DNA of 64,000 nt, taken from assembly GCF_001458175.1 (NCBI RefSeq), contig NZ_CYPW01000008.1, forward strand, positions 1-64,000. The letters are read 5' to 3'. Position numbers and translations under genes: made by a program. Under the pieces are notes generated by a model, which was not told the origin of the DNA, did not search any database, and saw only the letters and a program-made list of their open reading frames with translations. Position 1 is the stretch's first letter. Every line of letters starts with the position of its first letter. Origin of the DNA: Shimia marina. Lineage in GTDB: Bacteria; Pseudomonadota; Alphaproteobacteria; Rhodobacterales; Rhodobacteraceae. This document shows, piece after piece, positions 3,293-54,382 of this stretch.

Positions 3293-3409
3293 GGCGCGAT
3301 CTCCTCGGACCCATGAAAATTCAGTGCGCGTCAGGGGCAAAGAAAAGAAGCCGTGAACCGGGGCAAACGACGCGCCTTTGTTGCCTTGAAACTACGAAAA
3401 TTCGTGCTT

Positions 3410-5517: not shown

Positions 5518-8028
5518 TTATTCTGCTGGAGCAGGAGTGGCGGCTGCCATCTCTGCCGGGATTGCGCGCTGCTCGTCCATCGCAGGCGCGATGCGCCGCA
5601 GCCGCAGGGCATTGGTCAGGACAAACACCGAGGACAACGCCATCGCACCCGCCGCAAGGATTGGTGACAGGAGCAACCCAAAGGCCGGATAGAGCACCCC
5701 GGCAGCGACCGGAATAAGTGCCACGTTGTAGGCAAAGGCCCAGAACAGGTTCTGCCGGATGTTGCGCATGGTCCGCCGCGATACTTCGAAGGCGTTCACC
5801 ACGCCGCGCAAATCGCCCGACATCAGGACGACATCCGCAGATTCGATGGCCACATCGGTGCCGGTTCCAATGGCGATGCCCACATCGGCATGCGCCAGCG
5901 CCGGGGCGTCGTTGATCCCGTCGCCGACAAAGGCGATGCGCTTGCCGCCCTCGCGCAAACTGTTGAGCGCCGCGACCTTGCCGTCTGGCAGAACGCCGGC
6001 GACGACATGGTCGATGCCGGTTTCGCGGGCGATGGCTTCGGCGGTTTCGCGTTTGTCCCCGGTGATCATCGCAACCGCAAGACCCTTTTCGTGCAGCGCT
6101 GCGATGGCTGCGCGGCTTGCCGGTTTGACCGGATCGGCGACGCCGATCACGGCGGCGATACGTCCATCTATGGCAGCGTAAAGCGCCGTCCGACCCTTGC
6201 TCGCGATCTTCGTTTCCTCTGGTGCCAATGCCGAGATGTCAATGCCTTCCCGCGTCATGTAGCGGTCGGCCCCAACCAACACCTCCGCGCCTTCGACCAA
6301 GGCGCGCACGCCGTAACCGGTGACCGACTGGAAACCTTCGGCCCCCACAAGCGGGGCGCCGTCGCCCCGGGCGGCGCGGACGATGGCGTCCGCGACAGGA
6401 TGCTCGGAGAGCGACTCCACGGCGGCGATCTTCGAGAGCGTTGTTGAACGATCGAACCCTTCCGCCAGCACAAGGTCAGTCAGTGCGGGTCGCCCCTCGG
6501 TCACCGTGCCTGTCTTGTCGAGGGCGACCACATCAACGGAATCAAGTAGCTGCAAGGCGTCGCCCTTGCGGAACAGGACGCCCATTTCCGCAGCACGTCC
6601 CGTCCCGACCATGATCGAGGTCGGCGTCGCAAGCCCCATCGCGCAGGGGCACGCGATGATGAGCACCGACACACCGGCGACCAGCGCCATCGTCAGGGCC
6701 GGATCAGGCCCGAAAAACAGCCAGACCAGCACGGTCGCCGCCGCGATCGCCATCACGGCAGGCACGAACCACAAGGTGATCCGGTCGACCAATCCCTGGA
6801 TCGGCAGTTTGGCGCCCTGGGCCTCTTCGACCATGCGAATAATCTGCGCCAGGGTCGTGTCGGCGCCGACCCGCGTGGCGAGGAACTGCAGGCTTCCGGC
6901 GCCGTTGACCGTCCCGCCGGTCACCGTATCTCCGGCACCTTTTTCAGCGGGGATCGGCTCGCCTGTCAGCATGCTTTCGTCGACGCGGCTGGTCCCCTCG
7001 ATGACCTCGCCATCGACCGCGATGCGTTCACCAGGGCGCACGATGACGATGTCACCCTGAACCAGCGCATCGATCTCGATCTCGACGCTTTCTCCGTCCC
7101 GCATCACGCGTGCAGTCCGCGCCTGAAGCCCTAATAGCTTCTGGATGGCCGCGCCCGTTCTCCCCTTGGCGCGCGCTTCAAGAAACCGCCCCAGAAGGAT
7201 CAGAACGACGATGACCGCTGCCGCCTCGAAATAGACGGTGCGCAGCGTGTCAGGCAGGACCGACGGTACGAATGTCGCAACCACGGAATAAAGGTAAGCC
7301 GCCCCGGTGCCGACCGCGACGAGGCTGTTCATGTCGGGGGCACCCCGGAACAAGGCCGGGAAACCCTTGGTGTAAAACGTCCGGCCCGGGCCGAAGAGAA
7401 CGATTGTCGTGAGAACGAATTGAAGAAGCCAACTCGTCTGCTGACCAATCGTGGTCTCGATAAGCATATGAACGGCCGGAATGACGTGGCCACCCATCTC
7501 GATCAAAAAGACCGGCAAGGCGAGGATGGCTGCAAAGGTGACCCGTTTGGCAAGCGCCTGAGCCTCTTCCTCCTTGCGCGCAACCCTGTCGTCACCGGCT
7601 TGGGCCGTTGCCACGGTTGCTGGATACCCTGCCGCGCCGCTTGCATTTACCAGATCGGATGTCGTGACAAGACCTTCGACGTAAACCACCGTCGCCGTCT
7701 CGGAGGCGAGGTTGACGTTCACCTCGACCACTCCAGGCACCGCGGAAAGCGCCTTGTCGACCCGCCCGACGCAAGAGGCACAGGACATGGCTGCAATCGT
7801 GAGTTCGGCCTTGGCCGTCCGCGCGGGGTAGCCCAGCTCGCGAAGGGTTTCGATGATTTCCGGAACGCGCTTGAGCGCGTCCACGCTCATACGCGCGGTT
7901 TCGGATGCAAGATTCACCGACACATCCTCTACGCCGTCGATTGCATTCAATGCGCGGTCGACCCTGCCAACGCAGGACGCACATGACATGCCTTCGATCG
8001 GCAGGCTGATCTGTTTGGGTTCGGGCAT
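5518..8028 (-). CDS. copA: Copper-exporting P1B-type ATPase
   Basis: Inner-membrane pump moving Cu(I) from cytoplasm to periplasm using ATP. The 836-residue protein has two N-terminal metal-binding HMA domains (CASC at 16-19 and 83-86), the membrane site CPC ([11 protein letters not shown]), phosphorylation motif DKTGTVTEG, nucleotide-binding SEHP, hinge [10 protein letters not shown], and the Cu(I)-type residues YN and MALSS in the last two helices (P1B-1 class). I prefer the ATG at 8028, which has AGGTGA upstream, to the frame start at 8049. A CueR-type promoter lies 31-61 bp upstream, and cueR follows. A paralog is at 49334-51844. Confidence 0.95.
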
Positions 8029-8058
8029 ATGTGTCACCTGTTTTTCCATTCGAAGTGG

Positions 8059-8089
8059 AATATGAGGCTTCCAGTTACTGGAGGGTCAA
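8059..8089 (-). promoter_or_regulatory. CueR-type promoter of the copper ATPase gene
   Basis: Read on the minus strand: TTGACC (-35), 19-base spacer with CTCCAGTAACTGGAAG dyad, then CATATT (-10). This matches the layout of the E. coli copA promoter bound by CueR. It faces away from the copZ promoter at 8118-8148, so the gap is a divergent copper-responsive control region. Confidence 0.85.
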
Positions 8090-8117: not shown

Positions 8118-8148
8118 TTGACCTTCCAGCGGGGGGAAGCCCCATGTC
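8118..8148 (+). promoter_or_regulatory. CueR-type promoter of copZ
   Basis: TTGACC (-35), spacer of exactly 19 bases with TTCC and GGAA half-sites around AGCGGGG, then CATGTC (-10 position). It precedes the copZ start by about 33 bp. Confidence 0.82.
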
Positions 8149-8180: not shown

Positions 8181-8381
8181 ATGAAGTTCAGCGTTCCGGA
8201 CATGAGCTGTGGACATTGCACCGCAGCAATCGAAAGCGCGGTGAAGAGCGCAGATCCGAATGCAGGCGTAGAATGTGACCTTTCTGCCCGACATGTGCGT
8301 GTCGCCAGCGTGTTACCAGCCGATCAAGTCCTAGCGATCATTCGGGATGCGGGCTACAACGTGGAACCTGCGGCCGCTTGA
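8181..8381 (+). CDS. copZ: CopZ-type copper chaperone (HMA domain)
   Basis: A 66-residue single HMA domain with the metal-binding motif MSCGHC (Cys10, Cys13). It should carry Cu(I) in the cytoplasm to the ATPase, and perhaps to CueR. The ATG at 8181 has AAGGAG upstream; a longer frame from 8031 is not plausible because it runs through the promoter. A paralog of 70 residues is at 52396-52608, also behind a CueR-type promoter. Confidence 0.92.
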   Translation: MKFSVPDMSCGHCTAAIESAVKSADPNAGVECDLSARHVRVASVLPADQVLAIIRDAGYNVEPAAA

Positions 8382-8385
8382 TGCA

Positions 8386-8417
8386 GTGCCTGGACCACCC
8401 AAGGGCGGTCCGGGCAC
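8386..8417. terminator. Hairpin between convergent copZ and dsbA-like genes
   Basis: GTGCCTGGACC and GGTCCGGGCAC form an 11-bp stem with one T-G pair around a 10-base loop, starting 5 bases after the copZ stop and ending 7 bases before the dsbA-like stop. There is no long T-run, so efficiency is uncertain; it could act in both directions. Confidence 0.6.
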
Positions 8418-8423
8418 AGAATT

Positions 8424-9155
8424 TCAGTCTTCGACTTTGCGGGCTTCCTCGACCAAGTCGACAAGCTGCGCCTTTTCGACGAAGCCCGGGACCAGCGCGT
8501 CACCGATCACGAAAGACGGCGTGCCGTTAAAGCCCAGAGCTTGGGTCAGTTGCATGGATGTCGCAATGTGCTCTTCGACCTCGGGGGCCTCCATGTCCTT
8601 GCGCAACTGTGCGATATCCAGGCCGATCTCCTCGGCAACGCGCAGCACGGAGGCCTCTTCCGCGCGGCCTTCCAGCCCCATCATCGCCCAGTGAAACTCT
8701 TCGTATTTGTCCTGCTTGCGCGCTGCCAAGGCCGCTTTCGCGGCGAACACCGATCCGTCTCCGAGAATGGGCCATTCACGATAGACGAGGCGAATGTTTG
8801 GATCGTCTTCGATCAAAGCCCGCACCTCGGGTTTGACCCGCCGACAATAAGGACAGTTGTAGTCGAAAAATTCCACAACGGTGACGTCCCCTTCCGCGTT
8901 GCCGAGAACCGGCGCATTCGGATCGTTCTCGATCAGATCGCGCTGGTCATTCAGAACTTGGGCCTGACTGAGCTCCTGCGCTTGCGCCTGCCTTTGTTCA
9001 AGGATGGCGACGGCCTCCATGACAATCTCCGGGTTCTCGCGGATTGCTTCCAGCACAAGTTCCTTGACCCGGGACTCTGACAGTTCGTCGGCGAGTGCCG
9101 GTAGCGGAAGCAAGGCAGCTATCGCGACCGTCGTGAAGGCTTGTCTGAAACGCAT
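8424..9155 (-). CDS. DsbA/ScsC-like periplasmic thiol oxidoreductase
   Basis: A 243-residue secreted protein (signal peptide about 1-22) with a charged helical N-terminal region and a thioredoxin-fold DsbA domain: active site CPYC (101-104) and cis-proline NGTPSF. The N-terminal extension resembles that of ScsC-type isomerases, which help oligomerise the protein. Partners are probably the ScsB-type reductases at 14764 and 44335. It is the last gene of the operon starting with the LDT at 14019, one base after the cytochrome c gene. A near-identical arrangement ends the cassette at 53644-54372. Confidence 0.9.
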   Translation of the reverse strand: MRFRQAFTTVAIAALLPLPALADELSESRVKELVLEAIRENPEIVMEAVAILEQRQAQAQELSQAQVLNDQRDLIENDPNAPVLGNAEGDVTVVEFFDYNCPYCRRVKPEVRALIEDDPNIRLVYREWPILGDGSVFAAKAALAARKQDKYEEFHWAMMGLEGRAEEASVLRVAEEIGLDIAQLRKDMEAPEVEEHIATSMQLTQALGFNGTPSFVIGDALVPGFVEKAQLVDLVEEARKVED

Positions 9156-9156
9156 T

Positions 9157-9639
9157 TTAGTTCTCTCCCCGTTGTTCGTCGGCTTCTGTCCGCGCGGCCT
9201 GGACTTCGCGGATGCGATCTGGCCAGGTGGACCGGATGAAGGCCAGGATGTTGTGAATTCGCTGGTCGGTCAGCACGTCTGCGAAACCGGGCATGCCACT
9301 GTCGAATTCGACGCCCTGACGCGCCAGAAGCGTTGCACCCCCCAGTTTTGTGTAATCGAAGAGCAGGCTGTCAGGATGATGCCAGGTGTGACCCGTCTCA
9401 TCATGCGGTGGTGCTGGCAGGCGCCCATCCGCGCCCGGCGTTCGCCATTCCGGCTGGCCTTCCAGATCCGCGCCATGACAAGACGCGCAGTTTTCTGCGT
9501 AGAGCAACGCGCCTTCTTCGATGTCGTAGCTCTCCGCCTTGGACGCGCTGCCGACATCCGAGGATGCACTGGTCGAGAGCCAATACGTGAAGGCGGCTGC
9601 TGCGACAGTGATCGGAACGGACCAAACGAGATACCTCAT
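9157..9639 (-). CDS. Membrane-anchored class I cytochrome c, coupled to the MCO gene
   Basis: A 160-residue protein with an uncleaved N-terminal anchor (about 4-20), one haem site CASCH (51-55) and a probable Met ligand in DSGMPGF. A distinctive PPHDETGHTWHHPD stretch, rich in His, is shared with its paralog at 54383-54859 and could bind copper. The start ATG at 9639 overlaps the MCO stop codon (ATGA), implying translational coupling. An electron-transfer partner of the MCO is the obvious reading: it could carry electrons from Cu(I) oxidation toward the respiratory chain, or feed the oxidase. Confidence 0.88.
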   Translation of the reverse strand: MRYLVWSVPITVAAAAFTYWLSTSASSDVGSASKAESYDIEEGALLYAENCASCHGADLEGQPEWRTPGADGRLPAPPHDETGHTWHHPDSLLFDYTKLGGATLLARQGVEFDSGMPGFADVLTDQRIHNILAFIRSTWPDRIREVQAARTEADEQRGEN

Positions 9640-11030
9640 GTGACCCGTATCCAGGTTGTCATGCCGGACGCGGCGTGGCTGAGCATGTGGCAATGGAACA
9701 GCCACTTGCCGGGATTGTCTGCCGTAAAGGCGATCTCCCGGGACTCGTTGCCGGCCAACAGGATCGTGTCCCGCATCGGCCCGAACGCGCCGTCGGGGCG
9801 CAGCTCACGGAAATGCATCCCGTGCAGGTGCATCGCATGTGGGAACACGGTCTGGTTCTCGATCTTCAAGCGCACCGGCTCGTTCAGGGATAGATCGGCC
9901 AGTGGCGTGTCGGTCATATCGGCGACATCATTCAGGGCCCAGAATTTGCCCGCTTGGGCAAGCTGACGGAATCCAAGACGTTCCCCACCGAGCAACGCGG
10001 ACTGCATCCGCCCCATTGCACCGCCGGACATGACCAGTCGCAAATCTCGCGCATCGGCAAGGTCCGGGGCGTTTGCTGCGGGGTTCGGCGGCAACGGCAG
10101 TGGCTTGCCTCTTGGTACTGAACTGGCTGTGCCGTCGATCGGAAAACTCACGAGCGGGGTCGGTTGATCGTCATCGCCGATGCGCAGCAAATGGGCCACG
10201 CCGCCTTCGTCTTCGGTCACATCGACAATTAAGTCGACGCGCTGTGCCGGGCCGAGGATCAACTCGCCGTCAATCTGCTGGGGTTGGCCGATTGGCATTC
10301 CATCGACGGCCACCCTCCAGCCACTCAACCCCGAGAGCGTCAGCGGGAAAATCCGCGCGCTTGCTGCGTTGATGATCCGCAAGCGAATGCGTTCGTTGCG
10401 CTTCGCGGACAAGGTCAGGTCATAGCGCCCATTGGTCGTGATAAAGTTGCCGATGCGTCCACCGTGGCTCATCATCATAGGCTGCTCGAAATTGTCGAAA
10501 AGCTGCCCGCTTTCGGGATCGAGCAACCAGTCCTCCAGAACGATGACTTCCTCGCGGTCGATGTCCGGTCCATTGGCCTCTTCGACGATCAAAGCACCGC
10601 GCAAACCACGCGCGACCTGCTCGTATGAGCGATTATGCGCGTGGTACCAATAGGTCCCGGCGTCCGGTACGACGAAGTCGTAGTCAAAGGTTTCACCAGG
10701 TGCCACGGGCTCTTGGGTCAGCCCTGAAACGCCATCCATCGCGTTATCGATCCGGATTCCGTGCCAGTGAACCGAACTGGGATCGGGTACCTCGTTGCGG
10801 AACCTGCGGCGCACCCGATCGCCTTGAGCGACCCGGATTTCCGGGGCCGGAACAAGGCCGTCATAGCCCCAGATCTCTGTTTCCGGGTAGGTGTCCGGAA
10901 GAAGCTGTTGACGTGCAACCTTGGCAACCACGTCCTCGAACGGGGTTGCGGCAAAAGCCGACCGCGGGATGGCCGCCGCGCAGGCCGCCAGTGTTGCATG
11001 GCGCAAGAAATCCCGACGTGTTTGTCTCAT
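9636..11030 (-). CDS. Tat-exported multicopper oxidase (cuproxidase-like)
   Basis: The 464-residue oxidase has a Tat signal (TRRDFLRHA) and full copper ligand sets: HWHG (88-91), WYHAH (128-132), HAMHLHGMHF near 395 and HCHMLSHAASGM (446-457) with type 1 Cys447. The stretch before the last domain (SGGAMGRMQSALLGG) is only weakly Met-rich. It is closest in this window to the MCO at 54856-56241 (same motif spacing, same downstream cytochrome). A GC-rich hairpin separates it from the diheme cytochrome gene upstream. A role in periplasmic Cu(I) oxidation is inferred from family and context; laccase activity on organics cannot be excluded. Confidence 0.92.
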   Translation of the reverse strand: MRQTRRDFLRHATLAACAAAIPRSAFAATPFEDVVAKVARQQLLPDTYPETEIWGYDGLVPAPEIRVAQGDRVRRRFRNEVPDPSSVHWHGIRIDNAMDGVSGLTQEPVAPGETFDYDFVVPDAGTYWYHAHNRSYEQVARGLRGALIVEEANGPDIDREEVIVLEDWLLDPESGQLFDNFEQPMMMSHGGRIGNFITTNGRYDLTLSAKRNERIRLRIINAASARIFPLTLSGLSGWRVAVDGMPIGQPQQIDGELILGPAQRVDLIVDVTEDEGGVAHLLRIGDDDQPTPLVSFPIDGTASSVPRGKPLPLPPNPAANAPDLADARDLRLVMSGGAMGRMQSALLGGERLGFRQLAQAGKFWALNDVADMTDTPLADLSLNEPVRLKIENQTVFPHAMHLHGMHFRELRPDGAFGPMRDTILLAGNESREIAFTADNPGKWLFHCHMLSHAASGMTTWIRVT

Positions 11031-11046
11031 TTCGATCCTCGAGAAA

Positions 11047-11067
11047 GCGGGGGCTTGTTGCCCCCGC
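11047..11067 (-). terminator. Intercistronic GC hairpin before the MCO gene
   Basis: GCGGGGGC and GCCCCCGC form a perfect 8-bp stem with a 5-base loop; on the minus strand it is followed by TTTCT. It lies in the 43-bp gap between the diheme cytochrome and MCO genes, so it may partly stop transcription or stabilise mRNA segments and set different levels of the two products. Confidence 0.6.
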
Positions 11068-11073
11068 GTGGTG

Positions 11074-11991
11074 TTAGTTCGACGCGGGGTTCTCCGCCTC
11101 GACCGTGTCCTTGTTCAGCAGGAAAAGCGCCATCGCTTCGCGATCGGCAGGTGTCAGAAACCGAGTTCCCTCGCGAACCACTTCCGCCATGCTGCCGCCG
11201 AAAGCATCGCCCGAAGGGATGATGCCGGTCTGGAGCGCATAAGCGAGGTTTGAAACCGTCCAGTCATTTTTGGCCAGGTCTTTTGGCCGTATCGCGGGTG
11301 CCTTGCTGCCACCGGGAAGCTGGGCGTTGCCTGCAAAGGAAGCACCGATATCGCGACCTCCTGCAAGATTGCGCGGCGTATGGCAGGCTCCGCAATGTGC
11401 CGCACCGCGCACCAATTCCCGTCCGCGATTCCATGCGCCGCTTCGCCCTTCAACCGGTTCGGTATCCGGATCGTAGAAGAACGCCGCTCGCCAGAGCTTC
11501 AGCCCCCATCGTTGATCGAATGGGAAGCTGACATCGTTTTCTGGTGCAGGTTCGTCCACGGGCGGCACGGTTTGAAACGCCGCCCAGAGGTCAGCGATAT
11601 CCTGGTCAGAAAAATCCGCATAGAACGTATATGGGAAAGATGGATAGTAGGGCGTTCCATCGGGGCCGATCCCCTGCCGCACGGCTTTTGCGAACTGTTC
11701 TGCCGTCCATTCGCCCATGCCATGTTCGGGGTCGGTCGTCAGGTTGGGCGGATAGAACGTTCCGAACGGGGTTTCGAGCGGCGCCCCTCCGGCAAGTGGT
11801 GCGCCGCCCGCTTCAAAATTGGTATGACAGGCAATGCACCCACTGGCGCGCGCCAAATATGCGCCCCGGTCGACATTGCCCTCTGTTGCAATCGGAGTCA
11901 CTGCACTGCCGACAGGCCATGCAATCACCACGCCGAGGCCGGCCGCGCCCAGCACGGCGACCCCGGTGACGAGTTTCAAAAACCGGCGCAT
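11074..11991 (-). CDS. Diheme cytochrome c
   Basis: A 305-residue exported or anchored protein with two cytochrome c domains: CIACH (52-56) and CGACH (200-204). It resembles the diheme subunits that accept electrons from periplasmic dehydrogenases. The preceding Met-rich cytochrome gene ends 2 bp upstream, so the two are co-translated as a pair. The same pair, same order, recurs at 25513-26983 without an MCO next to it. Its likely role is electron transfer between periplasmic oxidation (Cu(I) or thiols) and the respiratory chain; no dehydrogenase partner is encoded here. Confidence 0.88.
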   Translation of the reverse strand: MRRFLKLVTGVAVLGAAGLGVVIAWPVGSAVTPIATEGNVDRGAYLARASGCIACHTNFEAGGAPLAGGAPLETPFGTFYPPNLTTDPEHGMGEWTAEQFAKAVRQGIGPDGTPYYPSFPYTFYADFSDQDIADLWAAFQTVPPVDEPAPENDVSFPFDQRWGLKLWRAAFFYDPDTEPVEGRSGAWNRGRELVRGAAHCGACHTPRNLAGGRDIGASFAGNAQLPGGSKAPAIRPKDLAKNDWTVSNLAYALQTGIIPSGDAFGGSMAEVVREGTRFLTPADREAMALFLLNKDTVEAENPASN

Positions 11992-11993
11992 GG

Positions 11994-12587
11994 TTAGTCT
12001 TCTTCCGCCCGGAAGCGTTCATGGCATGCGGAACAGACCTGTGTCGTCATCGCGAATGCCGCGTCGGCGGGCATTTCGGCAATGGCGGCAGCATCCATCA
12101 TGCCGCCGCTGCCCATCATCGTGCTCCCGCCCATCATGGTTGTATCGCTTCCCATCATGGATCCGCCGCCCATCATCGAGGCGCCATCCGTGGAGGTATT
12201 GCCGCCCATGCCGCCTAGCCCATTGTCGGCTGCGCGTTTCAGGCCTTCAGAGTATTCTTCCAGCTGATTTGCCAGTGCTGCGAAGCGGTCCCAATCGGTC
12301 CACACTTCGTCTTTGGCTTCCGAGGGCATGCCACCTGTGCCCTCTGGGAACAGCTTTGTCATGCTCTCACCGGCGTGCTGCTGGAACAGGCGCGCTGCAT
12401 CGCCCACTATTTCTGCGTCATAGGCCGTTTCGCCCCGCATCATCGGGGCTACGGTTTTGACTGCCTTTCCCATGGCGGCCATGGCATCCATGCGTTCCTT
12501 TACGATGCCCGTGGCACCGCTATGCGCAAATGCCGCGACCGCGGTTCCTGCAATCAACACTGCCGCTGCGATAGTCGTCTTTTTCAT
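11994..12587 (-). CDS. Cytochrome c'/c556-like protein with Met-rich insert
   Basis: A 197-residue secreted protein with a four-helix cytochrome c' fold pattern and a C-terminal haem site CSACH (185-189). Between about residues 128 and 165, just before the last helix, is a low-complexity segment made of repeated MMG units (such as MMGGGSMMG). Met-rich segments of this kind bind Cu(I) in CueO, CopA and PcoA. The paralog at 26414-26983 has the same fold with a shorter MMGTG-type insert. A Cu(I)-binding cytochrome could couple binding to electron transfer; this is inference. Confidence 0.85.
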   Translation of the reverse strand: MKKTTIAAAVLIAGTAVAAFAHSGATGIVKERMDAMAAMGKAVKTVAPMMRGETAYDAEIVGDAARLFQQHAGESMTKLFPEGTGGMPSEAKDEVWTDWDRFAALANQLEEYSEGLKRAADNGLGGMGGNTSTDGASMMGGGSMMGSDTTMMGGSTMMGSGGMMDAAAIAEMPADAAFAMTTQVCSACHERFRAEED

Positions 12588-12630
12588 GTCTTCGATCCTT
12601 TAATGGGTCTGCTCTAAGAGGGGTGTGAAA

Positions 12631-12960
12631 TCAGACCCACTTCCGTGGGGGTGGAGGATCGCTGTCGGGGCGCAATTCGGTTCGTTGGGTCGCGCCGTCT
12701 TGCATGACGGCGTTCATAAAATGAGGCTCGTAAACCACCGTTTCTGGGAACAACAACGCTGCCGGAACAGAACAGTCGAGTCCCGGATGACAGTGACCAG
12801 AGGTCTCGCTCGTAGATGGCCCCACATTTTCATGACTGTGTGATTCTTGCGCCAAAGACGCTCTATCATGGAACGCTGGTGCCTCAGGGACACCGAGAAC
12901 CACAAGGAACAGGCCAAAAACGATCGACAGGATCCATCTGTTCGTCTTCGACCAACGCAT
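12631..12960 (-). CDS. Small secreted His/Cys-containing protein, unknown
   Basis: A 109-residue protein with an N-terminal hydrophobic segment (about 10-27) and a body with ESHSHEN and GHCHPGLDCS, which could bind metal. The C-terminus is Pro-rich (RPDSDPPPPRK). Its start shares a base with the stop of the cytochrome c gene upstream (TGATG), so it is a true operon member. The layout resembles the small secreted proteins at 42507-42899 and 29515-29856, each near copper genes. I do not recognise a family; small copper-induced proteins of the DUF2946 or CopL kind are the nearest idea. Confidence 0.6.
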   Translation of the reverse strand: MRWSKTNRWILSIVFGLFLVVLGVPEAPAFHDRASLAQESHSHENVGPSTSETSGHCHPGLDCSVPAALLFPETVVYEPHFMNAVMQDGATQRTELRPDSDPPPPRKWV

Positions 12961-13430
12961 CAGTTGATCCCGTTGGCCCGCTGTAGTTCTCGGACATAGG
13001 CAGCCACCATCTTGACGTCTCCTTGGGTCAGCCCCTCGATCTTGGGCATATTACCGAATTTCCAGTGATGCGCACGCACGCCATTTTGAGCGGCCAGAAC
13101 AAAGGCCATGTCTGAATGGTGGCTCGGCTCGTAAATCTTGTGCACAAGAGGCGGGGCAATCCCGTTTTGTCCCGCTGCGTTTGCTCCATGGCACTCGGAA
13201 CACTTAGCCTCGAATATGGTTTTCCCAATCGTGGCTTGCTCCGAGAATTCTGCCGGCAGTTGGACCTGAACGATTGGGTCGCCTGCTTCTATGCTACTCG
13301 TGTCAGGAGGCGTCATGGAATGACCCATCGCTGTATCTTCCGCAGAATCTTCCGCAGAAATGAACTGCCAAGTTGCAACTCCCCCGCCAGCTATAACTAC
13401 GGCTCCAATAAGCGCGGTCAATTTGTCCAT
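12960..13430 (-). CDS. Membrane-anchored class I cytochrome c
   Basis: A 156-residue protein with an N-terminal membrane anchor (about 4-24), haem site CSECH (77-81) and probable Met ligand in GNMPKIEG. A SHHSDM stretch follows the haem. The ATG at 13430 has GGAAG upstream and leaves 28 bp after the LDT gene; a much longer frame reading back to 13763 is a shadow of the LDT. The paralog at 56440-56880 also directly follows an LDT gene, so the LDT-cytochrome pair is conserved. Confidence 0.87.
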   Translation of the reverse strand: MDKLTALIGAVVIAGGGVATWQFISAEDSAEDTAMGHSMTPPDTSSIEAGDPIVQVQLPAEFSEQATIGKTIFEAKCSECHGANAAGQNGIAPPLVHKIYEPSHHSDMAFVLAAQNGVRAHHWKFGNMPKIEGLTQGDVKMVAAYVRELQRANGIN

Positions 13431-13458
13431 GCCTGTATCTTCCGCCTTGTCTCTTGGG

Positions 13459-14019
13459 TCAGATGAGTTTGACTTGAGTGCCGACGGGCACCCGCTCGTA
13501 AAGCTCTTCAACCTGTTCGTTGAACAAACCGATGCAGCCATTTGATGACCGACGGCCGATTTTTCGCGTGTCCTGTGTTCCGTGGATACGGTAGTATTGC
13601 CAGGACAGATACAATGCGCGGGTACCCAGAGGGTTGGCAGGATCGCCTCCCTCGACACGTGCCGGCCATTCTGGATTGCGTTCCCGCATGGAGGGCGTCG
13701 GCGCCCAGCTGGGGTTTTTGCGCTTTTCCACGACTTCGGTATAACCGCGTTTTGTGAGTTCATCGGTCAGAGGAACGGATGTCGGATAGATCCGCATTGA
13801 CCCATCTGCTGTCCAATGCTGCAGAGCCCGTGTTTCCGTGTCCGAGATAATGATACCCTTTCCAAGCGTATCGAAATGGTCTTGCCACTCGTGAACTCGG
13901 AAAGAAGAGATATTGCGGCGAATGACTTCGGCCCGAACCACGCTTGGGGCAGCCAAAGCAACCGCCGCCAAACCAAATAGGCGTCGTCGGTTAATCTTGT
14001 TATTCGGCAAAGACGTCAT
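13459..14019 (-). CDS. Tat-exported L,D-transpeptidase (YkuD domain)
   Basis: A 186-residue YkuD protein with a Tat signal (NRRRLFGLAAVALA, AxA site VRA) and catalytic segment HGTQDTRKIGRRSSNGCIGL. The residue two after the catalytic Cys is Gly where most family members have Arg; the paralog at 56880-57449 shares this, so it marks a subgroup rather than a defect. It is the first gene of the eight-gene leftward operon ending at 8424. A TGTA direct-repeat box lies 81 bp upstream, at the same distance as for the paralog. Confidence 0.88.
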   Translation of the reverse strand: MTSLPNNKINRRRLFGLAAVALAAPSVVRAEVIRRNISSFRVHEWQDHFDTLGKGIIISDTETRALQHWTADGSMRIYPTSVPLTDELTKRGYTEVVEKRKNPSWAPTPSMRERNPEWPARVEGGDPANPLGTRALYLSWQYYRIHGTQDTRKIGRRSSNGCIGLFNEQVEELYERVPVGTQVKLI

Positions 14020-14099
14020 GACACACTCCCAGCCTCGGTTTTGTCACACGTCTTTTACGCGAGACCCGGCATCTGGCAACCTGACAAGGCCGCGAGAAG

Positions 14100-14115
14100 T
14101 GTATCCATTTGTATC
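14100..14115. promoter_or_regulatory. Putative response-regulator box (TGTATC-N4-TGTATC)
   Basis: The best copy of the repeat: TGTATC twice with a 10-bp period. It lies between the divergent LDT operon and DUF2933 gene and ends one base before the -35 of the CueR-type promoter at 14117. One site could therefore serve both directions, and bound regulator could contact the CueR-dependent polymerase. Confidence 0.65.
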
Positions 14116-14116
14116 C

Positions 14117-14147
14117 TTGACCTTACCCTGCTGGAGGGCCGCAAATG
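14117..14147 (+). promoter_or_regulatory. CueR-type promoter of the DUF2933 operon
   Basis: TTGACC (-35), 19-base spacer with an imperfect dyad (TTACCCTGCTGGAGGG), CAAATG (-10 position). It directly abuts the TGTATC repeat at 14100-14115, giving a composite control region. Confidence 0.7.
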
Positions 14148-14175
14148 ACGCGGGAAACGAGACAAAGAGGGTGTC

Positions 14176-14478
14176 ATGGACCACCAGAACCACAGAAAAA
14201 AGCCGATCACGGACAGGCTCATGCATTACGGAATGATGGCGTGTTGCGCCGTCATGCTGCTGCCCGTTGCGGGATTTTTTCTTGCCGGCGGCACATTGGC
14301 GGGCATGTGGGGCAATGCAGCGGCTTTCGCCCCGCTCCTGCTGTGCGTGGGGGCGCATCTTGCGATGCACAAATTCATGGGGAAATCGTGCCATTCCGAC
14401 AAGGCAAAGGATACTATCGAGGAAACGACCGAGCCCATGACCTCCGCGATTCCAGTCGTGGTCCGCGACAGGCCGTGA
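14176..14478 (+). CDS. DUF2933 small membrane protein
   Basis: A 100-residue protein with two membrane segments (about 19-37 and 44-62), a CC pair in the first (MMACCAVMLLP) and the family signature GAHLAMHKFMGKSCH at the end of the second. DUF2933 proteins are common in metal-resistance loci, function unknown; the Met, His and Cys residues suggest copper binding. It has a CueR-type promoter and leads a rightward unit with the lipoprotein and ScsB genes. The paralog is at 52051-52344. Confidence 0.82.
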   Translation: MDHQNHRKKPITDRLMHYGMMACCAVMLLPVAGFFLAGGTLAGMWGNAAAFAPLLLCVGAHLAMHKFMGKSCHSDKAKDTIEETTEPMTSAIPVVVRDRP

Positions 14479-14763: not shown

Positions 14764-16893
14764 TTGATCGATTGCCTTTTGATCCTGCGACGGGTTTTGC
14801 TTATTCCCTTCGTGCTCCTGGCCCTTGTCTCTGGAAGTGTCGCGGCAGCAACCTCTGCTGAATACCAGAGCGCGCCACTCACCGCGCATCTCATTAGTGT
14901 ACAGGACGGCGTTCCCGAGAACACACAGACTCTGTCAGCCGGGCTTCACCTTCAACTGAACGAAAACTGGAAGACCTATTGGCGGTCGGCGGGCGAGGTG
15001 GGAATACCGCCTTCGGTCGAATGGAGCGGTTCCGAAAACGTCGCAGATGTCGAATTCATGTGGCCCGCCCCGACGCGCTTCACCGCCTTCGGCATCGAAA
15101 ATTTTGGTTATGCGGGTGAAGTCGTCTTTCCGCTGCGCATAACGCTCGAAGATCCCGGCGCACCTGTGACTCTTTCCGCGCAGGTCAAACTGCTGGTGTG
15201 CTCCAATGTCTGTGTCCCGGAAGAGTTTGACCTGTCACTTCGCCTCGGACGGGGCAACGTCATCGACAGCACTTCGGCTGGGCTGATCGGTACGTTTTCC
15301 GAGCGCGTCCCCGAAGGGGCCAAGACGAGCGGCGTCAGCGAGGCAAATGCCTTCATCGACGAAGACCTCACGGAGTTGATCGTCAGCCTTCGCGTCGATG
15401 AACCACTCCAGTCGCCGGATGTGTTTCCCGAACTGGGTATGGGTGTTGCGCTTGGCAAACCCGATATCCGTTTGGGAGAAGAGGATCGTTTGCTTTGGGC
15501 GCGCTTGCCGATCCTCTCGTCGAATACGGATGTGACAGTGGCTCCGTCGATTACCGTCACCGACGGCGAGAACCGGGCCTTCACGATCATCGCGGATCGC
15601 GTGGCGCAAGGAATAGCACCACCCTTTGAGCTGGCCGCCACGACACCGGACATGATGGAACTGATCTGGATTGCCGCGATCGCGCTGCTGGGCGGATTGA
15701 TCCTGAATGTGATGCCCTGCGTGCTGCCGGTGCTGTCCATCAAGGTGTCGTCTGTGCTCAAACACACCGATCACGACACAACCCGTGTCCGGTTCGGTTT
15801 CGTCGCTGCCAGCGCCGGCATCATGACGTTCATGTGGGGTCTGGCGCTCGTCCTCTGGGCGCTCCAGACGGCAGGCCTCAGCGTCGGGTGGGGTCTGCAG
15901 TTTCAAAGCCCGCTGTTTCTTGCGGTGATGATCGCTGTCCTGCTCGTCTTTTCGGCAAATCTGTTCGGAGCGTTCGAGTTCGCCCTTCCACACGGCATTC
16001 AAACGCGGCTTGCAGGGGCCGGTGGACGCAACGGGTATTCCGCCGACTTTTTCACTGGCATGTTCGGTGCCGTCATGGCGACGCCTTGTTCGGCACCGTT
16101 CCTCGGCACCGCTGTGGCCTTTGCTTTGGCCGGGCGTGGCTTGGACATCCTCATAGTCTTTTCGAGCCTCGGGTTCGGCCTCGCCCTGCCCTATCTCGTC
16201 ATCGCCGCGTTCCCGCGTCTGGTCGCATTCATGCCTAAGCCTGGTCGATGGATGCTGATCATCAAAAGCGTCATGGGGGTCTTGTTGCTTGCAACCGCCG
16301 TGTGGCTGTTCTGGGTGCTCGACGGTGTCGCCGGGCTTGTGTCTGTCATCGCGGTCGCGGCGTTGTCCGGTCTCGCCGTTCTGATACTATCTCTCCCGAA
16401 TGTGCAGTCCCAGTTCAGGTGGTCTATTGCCATAGCCAGCCTTGTCCTGGCCATTGCCGCAGGTCCTCTCTTGCAGCAATCAGCACCTGCGCGTTCGACG
16501 CCGCAGTTGGCAATGGCTTGGATCGCATTTGATCGTTCGGACATAGCGAAACGCGTGTCCGCAGGAGAGGTCGTTTTTGTCGATGTGACCGCTGACTGGT
16601 GCCTGACTTGCAAAGCGAACAAGACACTTGTCATCGACCGGGAGCCAGTCCGGAGCGCGCTTGAAGCGCCTGGAGTCACGGCGATGCAGGCAGATTGGAC
16701 ACGCCCGGACACGCGCATTTCCCGCTACCTTGAGAGTTTCGGCAGATACGGCATCCCCTTCAATGCCGTCTACGGACCATCGGCACCGAACGGCATTGTG
16801 CTGTCCGAATTGCTAACAACCGAAGACGTGATGGACGCCTTGGCGCAAGCCAGCGGTCGGGATGTTTCCGCAAAGGTTGCCGGACAGGAGTGA
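14764..16893 (+). CDS. scsB: ScsB/DsbD-type thiol:disulfide reductase
   Basis: A 709-residue inner-membrane protein that moves electrons from cytoplasmic thioredoxin to periplasmic thiol proteins. Order: signal peptide (about 1-28), a large N-terminal periplasmic domain with the pair VCSNVC, eight membrane helices including the reactive-Cys motifs NVMPCVLPV and ATPCSAPF, and a C-terminal thioredoxin domain with WCLTCK near residue 612. The long N-terminal domain separates ScsB from ordinary DsbD. The start is TTG with AGGAAGCAGG upstream. Likely clients are the DsbA/ScsC-like proteins here. A paralog is at 44335-46461. Confidence 0.9.
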   Translation: MIDCLLILRRVLLIPFVLLALVSGSVAAATSAEYQSAPLTAHLISVQDGVPENTQTLSAGLHLQLNENWKTYWRSAGEVGIPPSVEWSGSENVADVEFMWPAPTRFTAFGIENFGYAGEVVFPLRITLEDPGAPVTLSAQVKLLVCSNVCVPEEFDLSLRLGRGNVIDSTSAGLIGTFSERVPEGAKTSGVSEANAFIDEDLTELIVSLRVDEPLQSPDVFPELGMGVALGKPDIRLGEEDRLLWARLPILSSNTDVTVAPSITVTDGENRAFTIIADRVAQGIAPPFELAATTPDMMELIWIAAIALLGGLILNVMPCVLPVLSIKVSSVLKHTDHDTTRVRFGFVAASAGIMTFMWGLALVLWALQTAGLSVGWGLQFQSPLFLAVMIAVLLVFSANLFGAFEFALPHGIQTRLAGAGGRNGYSADFFTGMFGAVMATPCSAPFLGTAVAFALAGRGLDILIVFSSLGFGLALPYLVIAAFPRLVAFMPKPGRWMLIIKSVMGVLLLATAVWLFWVLDGVAGLVSVIAVAALSGLAVLILSLPNVQSQFRWSIAIASLVLAIAAGPLLQQSAPARSTPQLAMAWIAFDRSDIAKRVSAGEVVFVDVTADWCLTCKANKTLVIDREPVRSALEAPGVTAMQADWTRPDTRISRYLESFGRYGIPFNAVYGPSAPNGIVLSELLTTEDVMDALAQASGRDVSAKVAGQE

Positions 16894-16921: not shown

Positions 16922-18073
16922 TCAGCCGCCGAGCCGCTCAAGCGCGGCACGGACCGCCGCACGCCGAGGATCACTGGCGGGCTGCTGCTCCAACAGCGCT
17001 TCAGCCTTGCGGTAGGCCTCAACGGCGCGATCGGGCTCCTCAAGGACCGTATAGGCGTTTGCCAGCCGCATCCAACCATCCAGATCGTCCGGTTCATCCT
17101 CAAGACGCTCGGCCAGCCGCGAGACCATCGATCGGATGAACTCCGCGCGGTCCGCGTCATTCATCTCCGACGCCGCCGCGACATCTGCCGCACTCGGGCC
17201 GGGTGGGGATGTCGGCCCGCTGGGTAGATTGACGACCGGGAGGTCAGCTGCCGCTGCAATCCGGTTGATCTGCAAAACGTATGTTTCCATCCAGGGCACG
17301 AACGTCTTTTCCTGGTTCAGCCGGGAAACGAGCAGATCGTAGGCCTTACGCGTCTCTTCTTTTTGAAGATGGTAGAGAGACTCGAAATAGGTTGCCGCAG
17401 GATTGGATGGGTCAAGTTCCAAAGCGCGATCAATGGCCAATTTCGCCCGTGGAATAACAACGCCATCATTGGCAACCGCGACAGCCTCCGCCAGCATGGA
17501 GAATGTCGCGGAGGTGGCATCCTCCCGTTTGGCGACAACTTCGAATGCTTCGACAGCATCAACTGTTCTGCCCATGCGCTGATAGGTCTGGCCCAACAGC
17601 ATCCACCCTTCGCTGGGGCCGCCGGTCGGATCGGATATAAGCCTTTCGCGAAGTTGTATTGCCAGCGCCGTCACTTCATCAGTCTGTGCGCGCTCCTCTG
17701 CACGGGCAGCGAAGGCCATTGAAGGCACCTCCGGCGATCCCATTGTCAGATAGTAGCCCGCGGCAATAACCGGCGCGAGGACCGCCGCGACAACAAGAGT
17801 GCCTCTGCCACCACTACGGGACGATCCGGCTTTTGCTTCCAAATTGCGGGTCGTCGCGAGGATCCGTTTCTTGATCTCGAGTCTGGCTGCTTGAGCTTCT
17901 TGTTCAGAAATCAAACCGCGGTCCATGTCTCGTTCGATTTCCTGCATCTGATCGGCGAGGATGGCCGGTACCGCATCTCCTCTGGTGAGAGTGTTCGATT
18001 TGGACAGCAGCAGCGGGTAGAGGACTATTCCGATCGCGACCAGCGTCAGAAGACCGAAAATACCCCAGATCAT
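16922..18073 (-). CDS. ccmI: Cytochrome c maturation protein CcmI
   Basis: A 383-residue System I component: two N-terminal membrane helices (about 3-20 and 95-110), then a periplasmic part with TPR-like helices that hold apocytochrome c for haem attachment. Its start overlaps the ccmH stop by 4 bp. It is the last gene of a leftward unit RR-HK-SHOCT-ccmF-ccmG-ccmH-ccmI. Having ccm genes here, next to many c-type cytochromes, points to support of cytochrome assembly during copper stress. ccmA-E are absent from the window. Confidence 0.88.
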   Translation of the reverse strand: MIWGIFGLLTLVAIGIVLYPLLLSKSNTLTRGDAVPAILADQMQEIERDMDRGLISEQEAQAARLEIKKRILATTRNLEAKAGSSRSGGRGTLVVAAVLAPVIAAGYYLTMGSPEVPSMAFAARAEERAQTDEVTALAIQLRERLISDPTGGPSEGWMLLGQTYQRMGRTVDAVEAFEVVAKREDATSATFSMLAEAVAVANDGVVIPRAKLAIDRALELDPSNPAATYFESLYHLQKEETRKAYDLLVSRLNQEKTFVPWMETYVLQINRIAAAADLPVVNLPSGPTSPPGPSAADVAAASEMNDADRAEFIRSMVSRLAERLEDEPDDLDGWMRLANAYTVLEEPDRAVEAYRKAEALLEQQPASDPRRAAVRAALERLGG

Positions 18074-18543
18074 GACGCATCCCCCGCTTCGTTTTGTCTG
18101 AGAATCTCGGACACGGTGTTCTCATCCTCCGCGCCCAAATCTTCAAAAGCCTCTTGCTTTCGCCGACTCATCAGTACCCCGCCACCAACGAAAACCCCGA
18201 TCAGAACGAAAGCGATCGGCGCAAACCAAAGCGCGTAGGTCGCAGGCTCCAGAGGCGGTTTGAGCAGCACGTAATCGCCGTACCGCGCCCGAATGTACTC
18301 GATCACCTGGGTGTCAGTGTCTCCTGCGACCAGTCGCTCGCGGACAAGAAGGCGCAGGTCCCGGGCCACACCCGCGTTGGAGCTGTCGATGTCCTGATTC
18401 TGACAGACGACGCATCGCAGATCCTTGGAGATCTCCCGTGCACGTTGTTCCAATAGCGGGTCAGTCAGCATTTCGTCCGGTTCGACGGCGTTGGCAGCAA
18501 AGGGAAGCGCCCCGATGCACAATGCGAAAATCAGCTGTCTCAT
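18070..18543 (-). CDS. ccmH: Cytochrome c maturation thiol reductase CcmH
   Basis: A 157-residue periplasmic protein anchored by a C-terminal helix (about 108-128), with a signal peptide and the family motif LRCVVCQNQ. It reduces or binds the CXXCH cysteines of apocytochrome c before haem ligation. It overlaps its neighbours on both sides by 4 bp, so ccmG-ccmH-ccmI are translated together. The CXXC thiols of this protein are among the targets expected to be sensitive to copper. Confidence 0.93.
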   Translation of the reverse strand: MRQLIFALCIGALPFAANAVEPDEMLTDPLLEQRAREISKDLRCVVCQNQDIDSSNAGVARDLRLLVRERLVAGDTDTQVIEYIRARYGDYVLLKPPLEPATYALWFAPIAFVLIGVFVGGGVLMSRRKQEAFEDLGAEDENTVSEILRQNEAGDAS

Positions 18544-19106
18544 GATCCTGCTCCGTTTGGCAGCGCGCCTGCTTGCGTCAGGGCTGTAGTGAAACGTTCA
18601 ACAGCGTCCGGACCCACAACTGGCCCGACATAGCGAAACAAAACGGTGCCATCGCCATCGACGATGAAGGTCTCCGGCACGCCCGAGAGTCCCCATTCGA
18701 TCCCGGTGCGGCCCGACAGGTCGGACCCGATCCGCTCGTAGGGATTGCCGAGGTCATTGAGCCACTTCACGGCATCCTCAGGTTTGTCTTTGTAGTTTAT
18801 TCCGAACAACCGCATGCCGTCTCGTTCGACAAATCTTGTCAACACGGCATGTTCCGCGCGGCAGGGCACGCACCAGGACGCAAAGACATTGACCACGACC
18901 GGTCGTTCGTTGCCGACAAGATCGCTTCGGGCCAGGCCGGGTGTCTCCAACCCCGGCACGGGATCGAGGTCGAACGCCGGGGCCGGTTGCGAGATGAGGA
19001 CGGAGGGGATTTCGTTCGGATCCCGGTCGGGATTGAGCCCCCAGAGGAAAAACCCCCCGAATATGACTGCTGCAATAAACGGCAGCCCGGCGATGAGACG
19101 TTTCAT
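18540..19106 (-). CDS. ccmG: CcmG/DsbE thioredoxin-like protein
   Basis: A 188-residue membrane-anchored periplasmic thioredoxin with the active site ASWCVPCRAEH and the acidic GVPETFIVD segment with the cis-proline. It keeps CcmH and apocytochrome thiols reduced and depends on a DsbD/CcdA-type donor, which the ScsB proteins here could supply. Eight bases separate it from ccmF upstream. Confidence 0.93.
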   Translation of the reverse strand: MKRLIAGLPFIAAVIFGGFFLWGLNPDRDPNEIPSVLISQPAPAFDLDPVPGLETPGLARSDLVGNERPVVVNVFASWCVPCRAEHAVLTRFVERDGMRLFGINYKDKPEDAVKWLNDLGNPYERIGSDLSGRTGIEWGLSGVPETFIVDGDGTVLFRYVGPVVGPDAVERFTTALTQAGALPNGAGS

Positions 19107-19114
19107 CTTCTCTC

Positions 19115-21115
19115 CTACTCGGCAGGAACAGCGTCGCTGGCAGGCTGTTTGGCGCGGCGCGGCGCCCCGACCCTCAAGCGGCGATCCGACAAGGAAAGAC
19201 AGCCGCCGATCACCAGCAGGATCGAGCCAATCCAGATCAGGTTGACGAGCGGTTCATAGAGGATCCGCAGGGTCCATGCTCCGGCGTTGTTCACTTGATC
19301 CGAGGCTGGCGTTGCAATCGACGTGTAGAGATCGCCCGCAAGTGTGGACCGGATCGCCGATTCCGTCGTCTGGCTTTCCGCGACCGGGTAATATCGACGT
19401 TCCGGGAACAGTGTCGTGACCAATTCGTCATCCCTGCGGACCACAAGGGTGCCGCGATCCGCAATGTAGTTCGGCCCTTGAACCTGCGCGGCGCCTTCGA
19501 AGGTGATGTCGAACCCGGCGATCGCAACTTCGGTCCCTGGAGCAGCAAAGACGATCTCTTCACTCTTCCAAGCGCTGGAGCCGATCATCCCCATCATCAA
19601 AATGGCAACGCCGGCATGGGCAAGCGTCATGCCGTGAGACGCCCGTGGCAGGTTGCGCGCCCGTCTCGCGCTCTCAGCAAAGGAAACCTCGAACAGACGG
19701 ATGCGTAGCGCCCATTCCCGTAAAGTCGCCAAAAGCAGCCACGCAGCGCCGAGGATGGCAAGATAGGCCATGATCGGCCCACCGTTCAGAAGATACCACG
19801 CGGCCAAAGTTGCGATGACAGCCAGCACGGCTACGAACCGAATGCGATCGAGCAACCCAGCGATATCGGCCCGTTTCCACGACAGGAATGGACCGAGACC
19901 CATGAACACCACCAAAGCCAGCATCATCGGGATAAATGCGGCATTGAAGAAAGGTGGACCCACCGAGATCTTGTCCCCGGTGACAGCCTCCAGGATTAGC
20001 GGATAAAGTGTTCCGAACAGGACTGTTCCGGTAGCGGCGGCAAGAATGAGGTTGTTCACCAGCAGCCCGGCTTCGCGGCTGATCGGGCGAAACAGACCGC
20101 CAGGCTCCATTTCGGGCGCCCGCCAGGCGTAGAGCGCCAGCGACCCACCGATGGACACGGCCAGCAGACCCAGAATGTAAAGCCCGCGCTCTGGATCGAC
20201 GGCGAAGGCATGCACGGATGTAAGCAGGCCCGACCGGACGATGAACGTCCCGAGCAGCGAAAGCGAGAAAGTCAGGATGGCAAGTAGGATGGTCCAGCTT
20301 TTGAACGCGTCGCGCTTTTCGGTGACGATGGCGGAATGCAGCAGCGCCGTGCCCAGAAGCCAGGGCATGAAGCTCACGTTCTCGACCGGGTCCCAGAACC
20401 ACCAGCCGCCCCAGCCCAGTTCATAATAGGCCCACCACGATCCAAGAGCGATACCTGCCGTAAGGCTGACCCACGCGGCCAATGTCCACGGGCGGACCCA
20501 TCTGGCCCAGGCCGGATCGACGCGCCCTTCCAGAAGAGCCGCAACGGCAAAGGAAAACACGATGGAGAAGCCGACATACCCGAAATACAAGAGCGGCGGG
20601 TGCATGGCGAGACCCATGTCCTGAAGCAACGGGTTGAGGTCATTGCCGTCGAGCGGCGGCGGAAACACCCGCTCGAAGGGGTTCGACGTCAGCAGCAGGA
20701 AGGACAGGAAGCCGACGCTGATCCACGCCTGCACCGACAAGGTGCGCGCCTTGGTCTCGGCGGGGATGTTCGATCCGAACCAGGCGACGCCCGCGCCGAA
20801 CACCGCGAGTATCAGGATCCAGAGCAGCAGCGAACCCTCATGGCTGCCCCAGGTCCCGGCCACCTTGTAGAGCATTGGCTTGAGCGAATGGGAGTTCTCG
20901 ACGACGTTCCTGACGGTAAAATCGCTGACGATGAAAGCCTGCATCAGCGCTGCGAAGGCGATGGCCACAAACAGCACTTGTCCTATTGCCGTCGCCTGGG
21001 CGGATTTCATCCAGACGGCGTTTCCACGCGACGCACCTGCAATCGGCAGAACGCTTTGAACAAGCGCAAGCGCAAGCGCGAGGGCCAGTGCGAAGTGACC
21101 AATTTCCGGGACCAT
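19115..21115 (-). CDS. ccmF: Cytochrome c haem lyase subunit CcmF
   Basis: A 666-residue polytopic membrane protein, normal length for CcmF, with the haem-binding WWD domain (WGGWWFWDPVENVSFMPW). Together with CcmH and CcmI it attaches haem to CXXCH motifs in the periplasm. The ATG at 21115 has AGGAAAG at proper spacing; a frame continuing to 21394 overlaps the SHOCT gene and is not real. If this set is an extra copy beside a chromosomal one, it would be a copper-induced haem lyase. Confidence 0.95.
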   Translation of the reverse strand: MVPEIGHFALALALALALVQSVLPIAGASRGNAVWMKSAQATAIGQVLFVAIAFAALMQAFIVSDFTVRNVVENSHSLKPMLYKVAGTWGSHEGSLLLWILILAVFGAGVAWFGSNIPAETKARTLSVQAWISVGFLSFLLLTSNPFERVFPPPLDGNDLNPLLQDMGLAMHPPLLYFGYVGFSIVFSFAVAALLEGRVDPAWARWVRPWTLAAWVSLTAGIALGSWWAYYELGWGGWWFWDPVENVSFMPWLLGTALLHSAIVTEKRDAFKSWTILLAILTFSLSLLGTFIVRSGLLTSVHAFAVDPERGLYILGLLAVSIGGSLALYAWRAPEMEPGGLFRPISREAGLLVNNLILAAATGTVLFGTLYPLILEAVTGDKISVGPPFFNAAFIPMMLALVVFMGLGPFLSWKRADIAGLLDRIRFVAVLAVIATLAAWYLLNGGPIMAYLAILGAAWLLLATLREWALRIRLFEVSFAESARRARNLPRASHGMTLAHAGVAILMMGMIGSSAWKSEEIVFAAPGTEVAIAGFDITFEGAAQVQGPNYIADRGTLVVRRDDELVTTLFPERRYYPVAESQTTESAIRSTLAGDLYTSIATPASDQVNNAGAWTLRILYEPLVNLIWIGSILLVIGGCLSLSDRRLRVGAPRRAKQPASDAVPAE

Positions 21116-54372: not shown

Positions 54373-54382
54373 GGGAGTTCTC

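Follow-up and report, generated by a model that had tools for sequence, protein, structure and literature searches.

The window analysed here, the first 64 kb of a 161,923-base contig (C8) in the 4.0-Mb genome of Shimia marina (G000), carries two versions of a gene cassette that combines an L,D-transpeptidase (LDT), two monohaem cytochromes c (c1 and c2), a multicopper oxidase (MCO) and a DsbA-like thiol protein of the ScsC type. The five families are co-conserved across genera and travel together on plasmids, and the LDT genes of such cassettes are preceded by copper-type operators. Judging from sequence comparisons, we give about even chances to the view that copper induces the cassette as a unit, which would combine Cu(I) oxidation and thiol repair with spare copies of envelope enzymes that copper poisons.

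An initial annotation of this DNA placed five genes in the order LDT, c1, (extra genes), MCO, c2 and DsbA at 8424-14019 (cassette A) and again at 53644-57449 (cassette B). All ten open reading frames (ORFs) were present on the minus strand in that order, and Pfam assigned them to the families named.

13459-14019, minus strand: LDT of cassette A (YkuD; Pfam and fold model)
12960-13430, minus strand: c1 of cassette A, membrane-anchored (judged by eye) monohaem cytochrome c, CSECH
12631-12960, minus strand: 109-amino-acid protein without Pfam or NCBIfam match
11994-12587, minus strand: cytochrome c' of cassette A, with a Met-rich stretch, CSACH
11074-11991, minus strand: dihaem cytochrome c of cassette A
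9636-11030, minus strand: MCO of cassette A, with all four copper-ligand motifs
9157-9639, minus strand: c2 of cassette A, monohaem cytochrome c, ATGA overlap with the MCO gene
8424-9155, minus strand: ScsC-type DsbA of cassette A, CPYC, ScsC_N domain
56880-57449, minus strand: LDT of cassette B
56440-56880, minus strand: c1 of cassette B
54856-56241, minus strand: MCO of cassette B
54383-54859, minus strand: c2 of cassette B, ATGA overlap with the MCO gene
53644-54372, minus strand: ScsC-like DsbA of cassette B, CPYC, ScsC_N below cut-off

The ATGA overlap at the MCO/c2 junction was found in both cassettes, as had been described. Paired proteins of the two cassettes were 58-73% identical (LDT 68%, c1 72% over 105 amino acids, MCO 58%, c2 63% over 129 amino acids, ScsC 73%). 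The cassettes have therefore diverged, as originally noted, and do not represent a recent duplication. The 109-amino-acid protein, the Met-rich cytochrome c' and the dihaem cytochrome c are extra genes of cassette A, absent from cassette B.

Co-occurrence of the five families within 8 kb, which the initial annotation had proposed as a check, was found in other genera. With c1 as the query, the five families were all encoded on the same strand, no more than 8 kb from c1, in 67 of 80 named loci; this set is biased, as many loci are near-copies. A fairer set was obtained by searching for the MCO in 198 genomes, one per genus. No more than eight MCO candidates were scored per genome, and the number of genomes with a match, at least 86 with that of S. 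marina included, is therefore a lower bound. The best place was fetched for 80 of the other 85 genomes; the five that were dropped (G021, G075, G078, G090 and G180) had matches of 35-42% identity. Among these 80 MCO loci, LDT was found in 17, ScsC in 20, both in 15 (Fisher p 3e-10) and all five families in 14. The 32 loci whose MCO profile score reached 680 bits, a threshold set post hoc, were then taken as a close set. Within it c1 was present in 31 loci, c2 in 27, ScsC in 20, LDT in 16 and all five families in 14; LDT and ScsC occurred together in 15, LDT alone in one, ScsC alone in five and neither in 11 (p 6e-4). Four of the 14 five-family loci (L089-L092) are near-copies, with an MCO 94% identical to that of cassette A. 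When near-copies were counted once, the four classes in the close set stood at 12:1:5:11 and the link between LDT and ScsC persisted (p 0.002). Gene absences are upper bounds throughout, since in 13 of the 80 loci the sequence stops short of 4 kb upstream or 3 kb downstream of the MCO.

These counts indicate that c1-MCO-c2 is the core of the cassette and that LDT and ScsC are linked additions to it. The idea of one set of five families thus stands as far as co-conservation goes; the five genes as an indivisible unit were rejected, as the counts in the close loci are nested. Some LDT loci lack the MCO, and in three genera genes for a ferric-reductase-like protein and a class B penicillin-binding protein (PBP) occupy its place. 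At L169:10128-12810 (also in L170 and L171) these two, the PBP being an extra one, replace the MCO within the LDT cassette. The ferric-reductase-like protein is MsrQ-like and matched Ferric_reduct alone in Pfam. In L174, c1 and c2 are neighbours with no MCO between them. Two loci, L053 and L075, come from bins labelled Porticoccus and Hyphomonas that may be misbinned.

The LDT of cassette A has a twin-arginine leader (judged by eye), an HGT...SNGC active site and a single Cys past the leader. It scored 85.6 bits against PF03734 (YkuD; cut-off 23.4), and that of cassette B 78.0. Its fold model matched 4lzh and YkuD, and the catalytic residues H146 and C162 were invariant in an alignment of 32 LDTs (A1). 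An LDT of this kind was found in 184 of the 198 genomes at E 1e-30, most of the matches listed being non-cassette copies of 56-68% identity; the S. marina genome has 15 YkuD matches, eight of them on the contig of the window. Cassette LDTs share subfamily and SxGC(I/V)GL active site with these housekeeping enzymes, and differ from them by their own tree groups, their copper-type promoters and their position in a cassette. In a midpoint-rooted tree of 79 non-redundant rows, one of them very long, group 1 of the cassette LDTs comprised 37 rows (support 97/99), two of which, the LDT of cassette A included, were unlabelled because of short stretches. Group 2 comprised ten rows of an 11-row branch (support 96/93) whose remaining row is a non-cassette LDT. 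At least two changes of cassette label are required by the starred branches of this tree, which suggests that LDT was recruited into cassettes more than once. At full-length position 67, every one of the 47 cassette LDTs, in either group, has Gln in place of His, as does one of 28 housekeeping LDTs, and only one Cys follows the leader in 47 of 47 and 17 of 28 respectively; both are weak hints, the direction of residue change not being readable from an unrooted tree. GCIG in place of GCIR was rejected as a copper-specific change, as GCIG is general in the subfamily, housekeeping LDTs included. Membership in the 1,3-cross-linking LdtGo family was also rejected: the cassette LDT lies well above the PF03734 cut-off, and the LdtGo group is set apart by its description as YkuD-like and different in PMC10864386 and PMC12729407.

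A TGTA box had been reported at the same distance upstream of both LDT genes. It proved to be a direct repeat, TACA-N6-TACA, with GATACA repeated at a 10-bp period in cassette A, and its far end lies 94 nt (A) and 96 nt (B) from the LDT start codon.

14100-14113, minus strand: direct-repeat box of the cassette A LDT, putative response-regulator site
57532-57545, minus strand: direct-repeat box of the cassette B LDT

The window contains eight such boxes, against a shuffle mean of 0.23, and they likely mark one regulon. Those at 23657 and 23688 (23657-23701) precede a response regulator gene. Others lie at 1296-1309 before DsbB/LDT2, at 29441-29454, some 280 nt ahead of a CusF-like gene, and at 51985-51998 between a DUF2933-like gene and CopA B. 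Among the group-1 cassette LDTs, 33 of 37 had TACA-N6-TACA 69-132 nt before the start. A second motif, the dyad TTGACCYTCC...GGA, preceded nine of the ten group-2 and nine of the 37 group-1 genes. By likeness to known sites, we take the dyad to be a CueR box and the direct repeat to be an OmpR-type site. Either copper-type box was present in 45 of 47 cassette LDTs, as compared with none of 27 housekeeping and none of three ambiguous LDTs; one of the 28 housekeeping genes was left out of this count because its start codon was missing or too little sequence lay upstream. The two cassette LDTs without a box are in L173, which is cut by the contig end, and in L174. Across 44 non-redundant cassette loci we counted 44 direct repeats, where mononucleotide shuffles predict 8.4; 27 of the 44 precede LDT, six a response regulator and four DUF2933 alone, and seven lie elsewhere. 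The regulators adjoining the boxes are of the OmpR type.

The thiol protein, originally described as DsbA-like, does belong to the DsbA family and can be named more exactly. Both proteins matched PF01323 above cut-off and have a CPYC active site; against ScsC_N (cut-off 25.8) the protein of cassette A scored 33.2 bits and that of cassette B 21.4, below cut-off. Among the solved relatives are chains whose deposited names refer to copper resistance and suppression of copper sensitivity, the top structure match being the neutrally named 3gyk, and a gene for an ScsB-like protein accompanies cassette A. On these grounds an Scs-type thiol pair appears the best name for the DsbA-like protein and its ScsB-like neighbour. 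An ScsB match was present in 26 of the 44 non-redundant loci. The likeness to the Scs (suppressor of copper sensitivity) system would lie in ScsC_N and CPYC in cassette A, a divergent DsbD-like ScsB and the copper context; the cassette proteins differ in being embedded among MCO, cytochromes and LDT, and in the sub-cut-off ScsC_N score of cassette B.

Both MCOs contain the type 1 and trinuclear copper motifs HWHG, WYHAH, HAMHLHG and HCHMLSHAASGM, and c1 and c2 of each cassette have one haem site apiece. The MCO of cassette A resembles CueO and PcoA/CopA in its four copper motifs, its twin-arginine signal match and the CopA-type ATPase and CopZ-like protein nearby. It differs from them by the overlap with a cytochrome c gene and by scores far below the NCBIfam cut-offs (CopA 193.4 versus 478.95; CueO 115.4 versus 525). 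Among solved structures its nearest relative is 4f7k (383 bits), which was deposited as 'Laccase'.

Cassette A matched 34 plasmid records, mostly from Phaeobacter and Dinoroseobacter; identity was at least 90% in 32 of these, and 30 were typed as conjugative. Over 5596 bases the cassette matches P. inhibens pP88_b at 100% identity, and a plasmid of Martelella (Hyphomicrobiales) has the same gene order. On plasmids the cassette adjoins genes annotated as heavy-metal ATPase, HMA protein and cueR. Two 166,348-base records, NZ_CP066787.1 and CP070277.1, are filed as Martelella and as Dysgonomonadaceae bacterium, and one is probably mislabelled.

In the proposed unit the MCO would oxidise Cu(I) in the periplasm, c1 and c2 would carry electrons to or from it, and ScsC, kept reduced by ScsB, would mend copper-damaged thiols and disulfides. 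The cassette LDT would be a copper-switched spare of the housekeeping enzyme, able to go on forming cross-links or envelope anchors when the catalytic cysteines of the housekeeping LDTs are inactivated by copper. A second CcmFGHI module next to the cassette would play the same part for cytochrome c maturation. Here we infer copper induction, the direction of electron flow and the pairing of ScsB with ScsC; most inferential of all is the part of LDT and Ccm as back-ups. The claim of the initial annotation that the genes form one periplasmic system is favoured by co-conservation, by the copper-type LDT operators and by joint travel; its stricter form, an inseparable set, does not agree with the separable families or with the LDT loci in which the MCO is missing or replaced.

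Copper has been reported to inhibit LD-transpeptidases and lipoprotein maturation and to make non-native disulfides (PMC9302775), the Ccm system to be a major periplasmic copper target (PMC8456105), and the Lgt step to be blocked by copper (PMC6538781). LDT, Ccm and the Lgt step are thus published targets, and mobile copper islands carry extra copies of these functions. We tentatively extend the proposal to such islands in general, with somewhat less confidence than an even chance: beyond pumping and oxidising copper, they may carry copper-switched spares of its targets (L,D-transpeptidase, CcmFGHI, Lgt, Dsb/Scs and, in a few, a class B PBP), repeatedly recruited from housekeeping families and each under copper control. 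Among the extra copies on the islands, LDT at least has copper-type boxes. More than one Lgt was found in eight of the 198 genomes. In six of these (G000, G035, G086, G153, G161 and G165) one copy is on the cassette contig, about 11-18 kb from the cassette, a distance that in G000 and G035 presupposes a circular contig; the remaining two genomes are G095 and G169. The two Lgt proteins of S. marina are 60% identical. In three genera the cassette itself contains an additional class B PBP gene, with a further match in L053. Extra Lgt or PBP2 genes were rarer in cassette loci than CcmF.

The family list of the initial annotation held good for the cassette itself and omitted CcmFGHI, which adjoins cassette A. 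In the window the genes for an OmpR-type regulator, its kinase and CcmFGHI follow one another on the same strand, with two direct-repeat boxes ahead of them, and a kinase lies just upstream of CcmF in six of 17 CcmF-bearing loci. CcmF, CcmG, CcmH and CcmI were found in 17, 19, 20 and 20 of the 44 non-redundant loci, and cassette A has four cytochrome genes. CcmFGHI may simply serve these added cytochromes, and it is chiefly this that rivals a back-up role. In its full form, which we consider possible though rather unlikely, such an explanation makes the cassette a Cu(I)-oxidising electron-transfer chain for any host, in which CcmFGHI and ScsBC build the cytochromes or keep cysteines right, LDT is a minor add-on and nothing is backed up. 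The maturation genes it carries may help in new hosts, since cassettes sit on plasmids and 30 of the 34 records are typed as conjugative. Among 61 genomes, eight had more than one CcmF. In five (G000, G005, G013, G035 and G043) a copy lies at most 8 kb from the cassette, in G013 beside a cassette without LDT; the other three genomes are G007, G009 and G029. The other CcmF of S. marina is on contig C27 and is 53% identical to the cassette-side protein. CcmB, a negative control, behaved as expected and was single-copy in all five genomes with a cassette-linked extra CcmF, so that a kit meant to be self-sufficient would be incomplete. Such a kit also leaves unexplained the LDT, Lgt and PBP2 genes and the apparent recruitment of LDT more than once, under copper-type boxes.

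Two further explanations concern the LDT. It might link an outer-membrane protein or lipoprotein to peptidoglycan, or alter cross-linking, and so give a tighter envelope under copper, a new property and no replacement. Alphaproteobacterial LDTs are reported in a review (PMC12729407) to anchor outer-membrane proteins to peptidoglycan, and a second LDT (LDT2) with a convergent small lipoprotein-like gene occurs in 17 loci, several of them near-copies. We regard this as improbable: no anchored substrate was identified, and the cassette LDT has the active site of the housekeeping LDTs listed and mostly 56-68% identity to them. Least probable, in our judgement, is that genes of mixed kinds merely pile up on metal-resistance plasmids and LDT is a passenger. 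Extra LspA, Lgt and several LDT genes do crowd the same 162-kb contig, and LDT is absent from half of the close MCO loci; against this, LDT stands first in the run, gene order is similar in diverged loci, the boxes are conserved, and recruitment probably took place more than once.

Several observations weigh against the back-up proposal itself, the absence of LDT from half of the close loci and the bias of the c1-anchored set among them. In G058 the cassette-type CcmF (68% identity) is the sole CcmF, and in G035 the chromosomal copy (75%) is also of the cassette type. The cassette LDT shows no clear copper-hardening, and the positions at which it differs, such as position 67, may be ancestral. 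PBP2 is not known to be a copper target. LspA, meant as a negative control, failed: at least 12 genomes have an extra copy on the cassette contig, at least 15 kb from the cassette, and duplication is therefore not limited to the step that copper blocks. LspA does occur with metal operons, as PbrC. On the S. marina contig there are three LspA matches (104585, 133994 and 146324), with one more on C32. Finally, a 102-kb D. shibae plasmid with copper genes conferred no copper phenotype according to PMC9426580, though the cassette is on the 191- and 126-kb plasmids.

Copper resistance is usually described in terms of efflux, oxidation and sequestration. As the initial annotation had surmised, a full-text search of one literature collection, which covered few subscription papers, brought up among the papers listed no described system that combines LDT, cytochromes, MCO and Scs proteins. 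The families themselves are mostly known already. In a proteome study of the related Epibacterium mobile, MCOs were expressed under copper and the word 'transpeptidase' is absent from the main text (PMC6308992). Lgt is reported near MCO and copper genes in the tcrYAZB island of Enterococcus faecalis (PMC4511184) and in Pseudarthrobacter AG30 (PMC6256500); the cassette loci share this arrangement with those islands, for which, unlike the cassette loci, no LDT, cytochromes or Ccm are named in the available text. If the proposal is true, metal resistance would have a further form, the supply of copper-switched target copies by a widespread plasmid cassette, and this would offer a natural way to test which envelope enzymes are limiting for growth in copper. 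Copper exposure could also be tied to tolerance of some beta-lactams through a copper-induced L,D-transpeptidase.

The surroundings of the two cassettes in the window include the following genes.

5518-8049, minus strand: CopA-type metal ATPase with two HMA domains, presumed CueR-type box at 8069-8089
8181-8381, plus strand: CopZ-like HMA protein, after a presumed CueR-type box at 8118-8138
14176-14478, plus strand: DUF2933 protein, divergent from the LDT of cassette A
14764-16893, plus strand: ScsB-like DsbD-family reductase (Pfam DsbD_N, DsbD_TM and thioredoxin)
16922-21115, minus strand: CcmI-CcmH-CcmG-CcmF, second cytochrome c maturation module
21422-23610, minus strand: sensor kinase and OmpR-type response regulator, just upstream of CcmFGHI
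52921-53589, minus strand: LDT2, a second, different L,D-transpeptidase, downstream of cassette B
57571-59777, minus strand: sensor kinase and OmpR-type response regulator, upstream of cassette B

The divergent DUF2933 and ScsB-like genes are part of locus A; a second DUF2933-like protein (52051) had no Pfam match. A third, partial set opens the window and is absent from the initial annotation of the cassettes.

2711-3340, minus strand: LDT, upstream of MCO and DsbB
1323-2627: MCO
697-1209: DsbB
64-654: truncated LDT2

This LDT2 ends just past the active-site Cys, and the counterpart L,D-transpeptidase gene in pP88_b is longer. An Rfam search of this DNA gave no match and a tRNA scan found none. 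In a scan of 8300-14300, neither sigma-70 promoters nor terminators exceeded chance; a weak terminator-like stem was seen on the minus strand at 12636-12649. A Pfam scan covered 110 of 1048 unassigned ORFs flanking the cassette loci; the families listed, the first 25 of 70, were mostly cupredoxins, cation efflux proteins and transporters, and further envelope genes may be present.

Downstream of cassette B, LDT2 lies tail-to-tail with the small lipoprotein-like gene (52617-52886 and 52921-53589), the arrangement that recurs in the 17 other loci mentioned above. The pair was also seen at L191:11755-12763 and L193:7846-9044, and on the contig of the window it flanks P-type metal ATPases as well, which we take to be of the Zn/Cd type. 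LDT2 and the small lipoprotein-like protein are possibly an enzyme-substrate pair.

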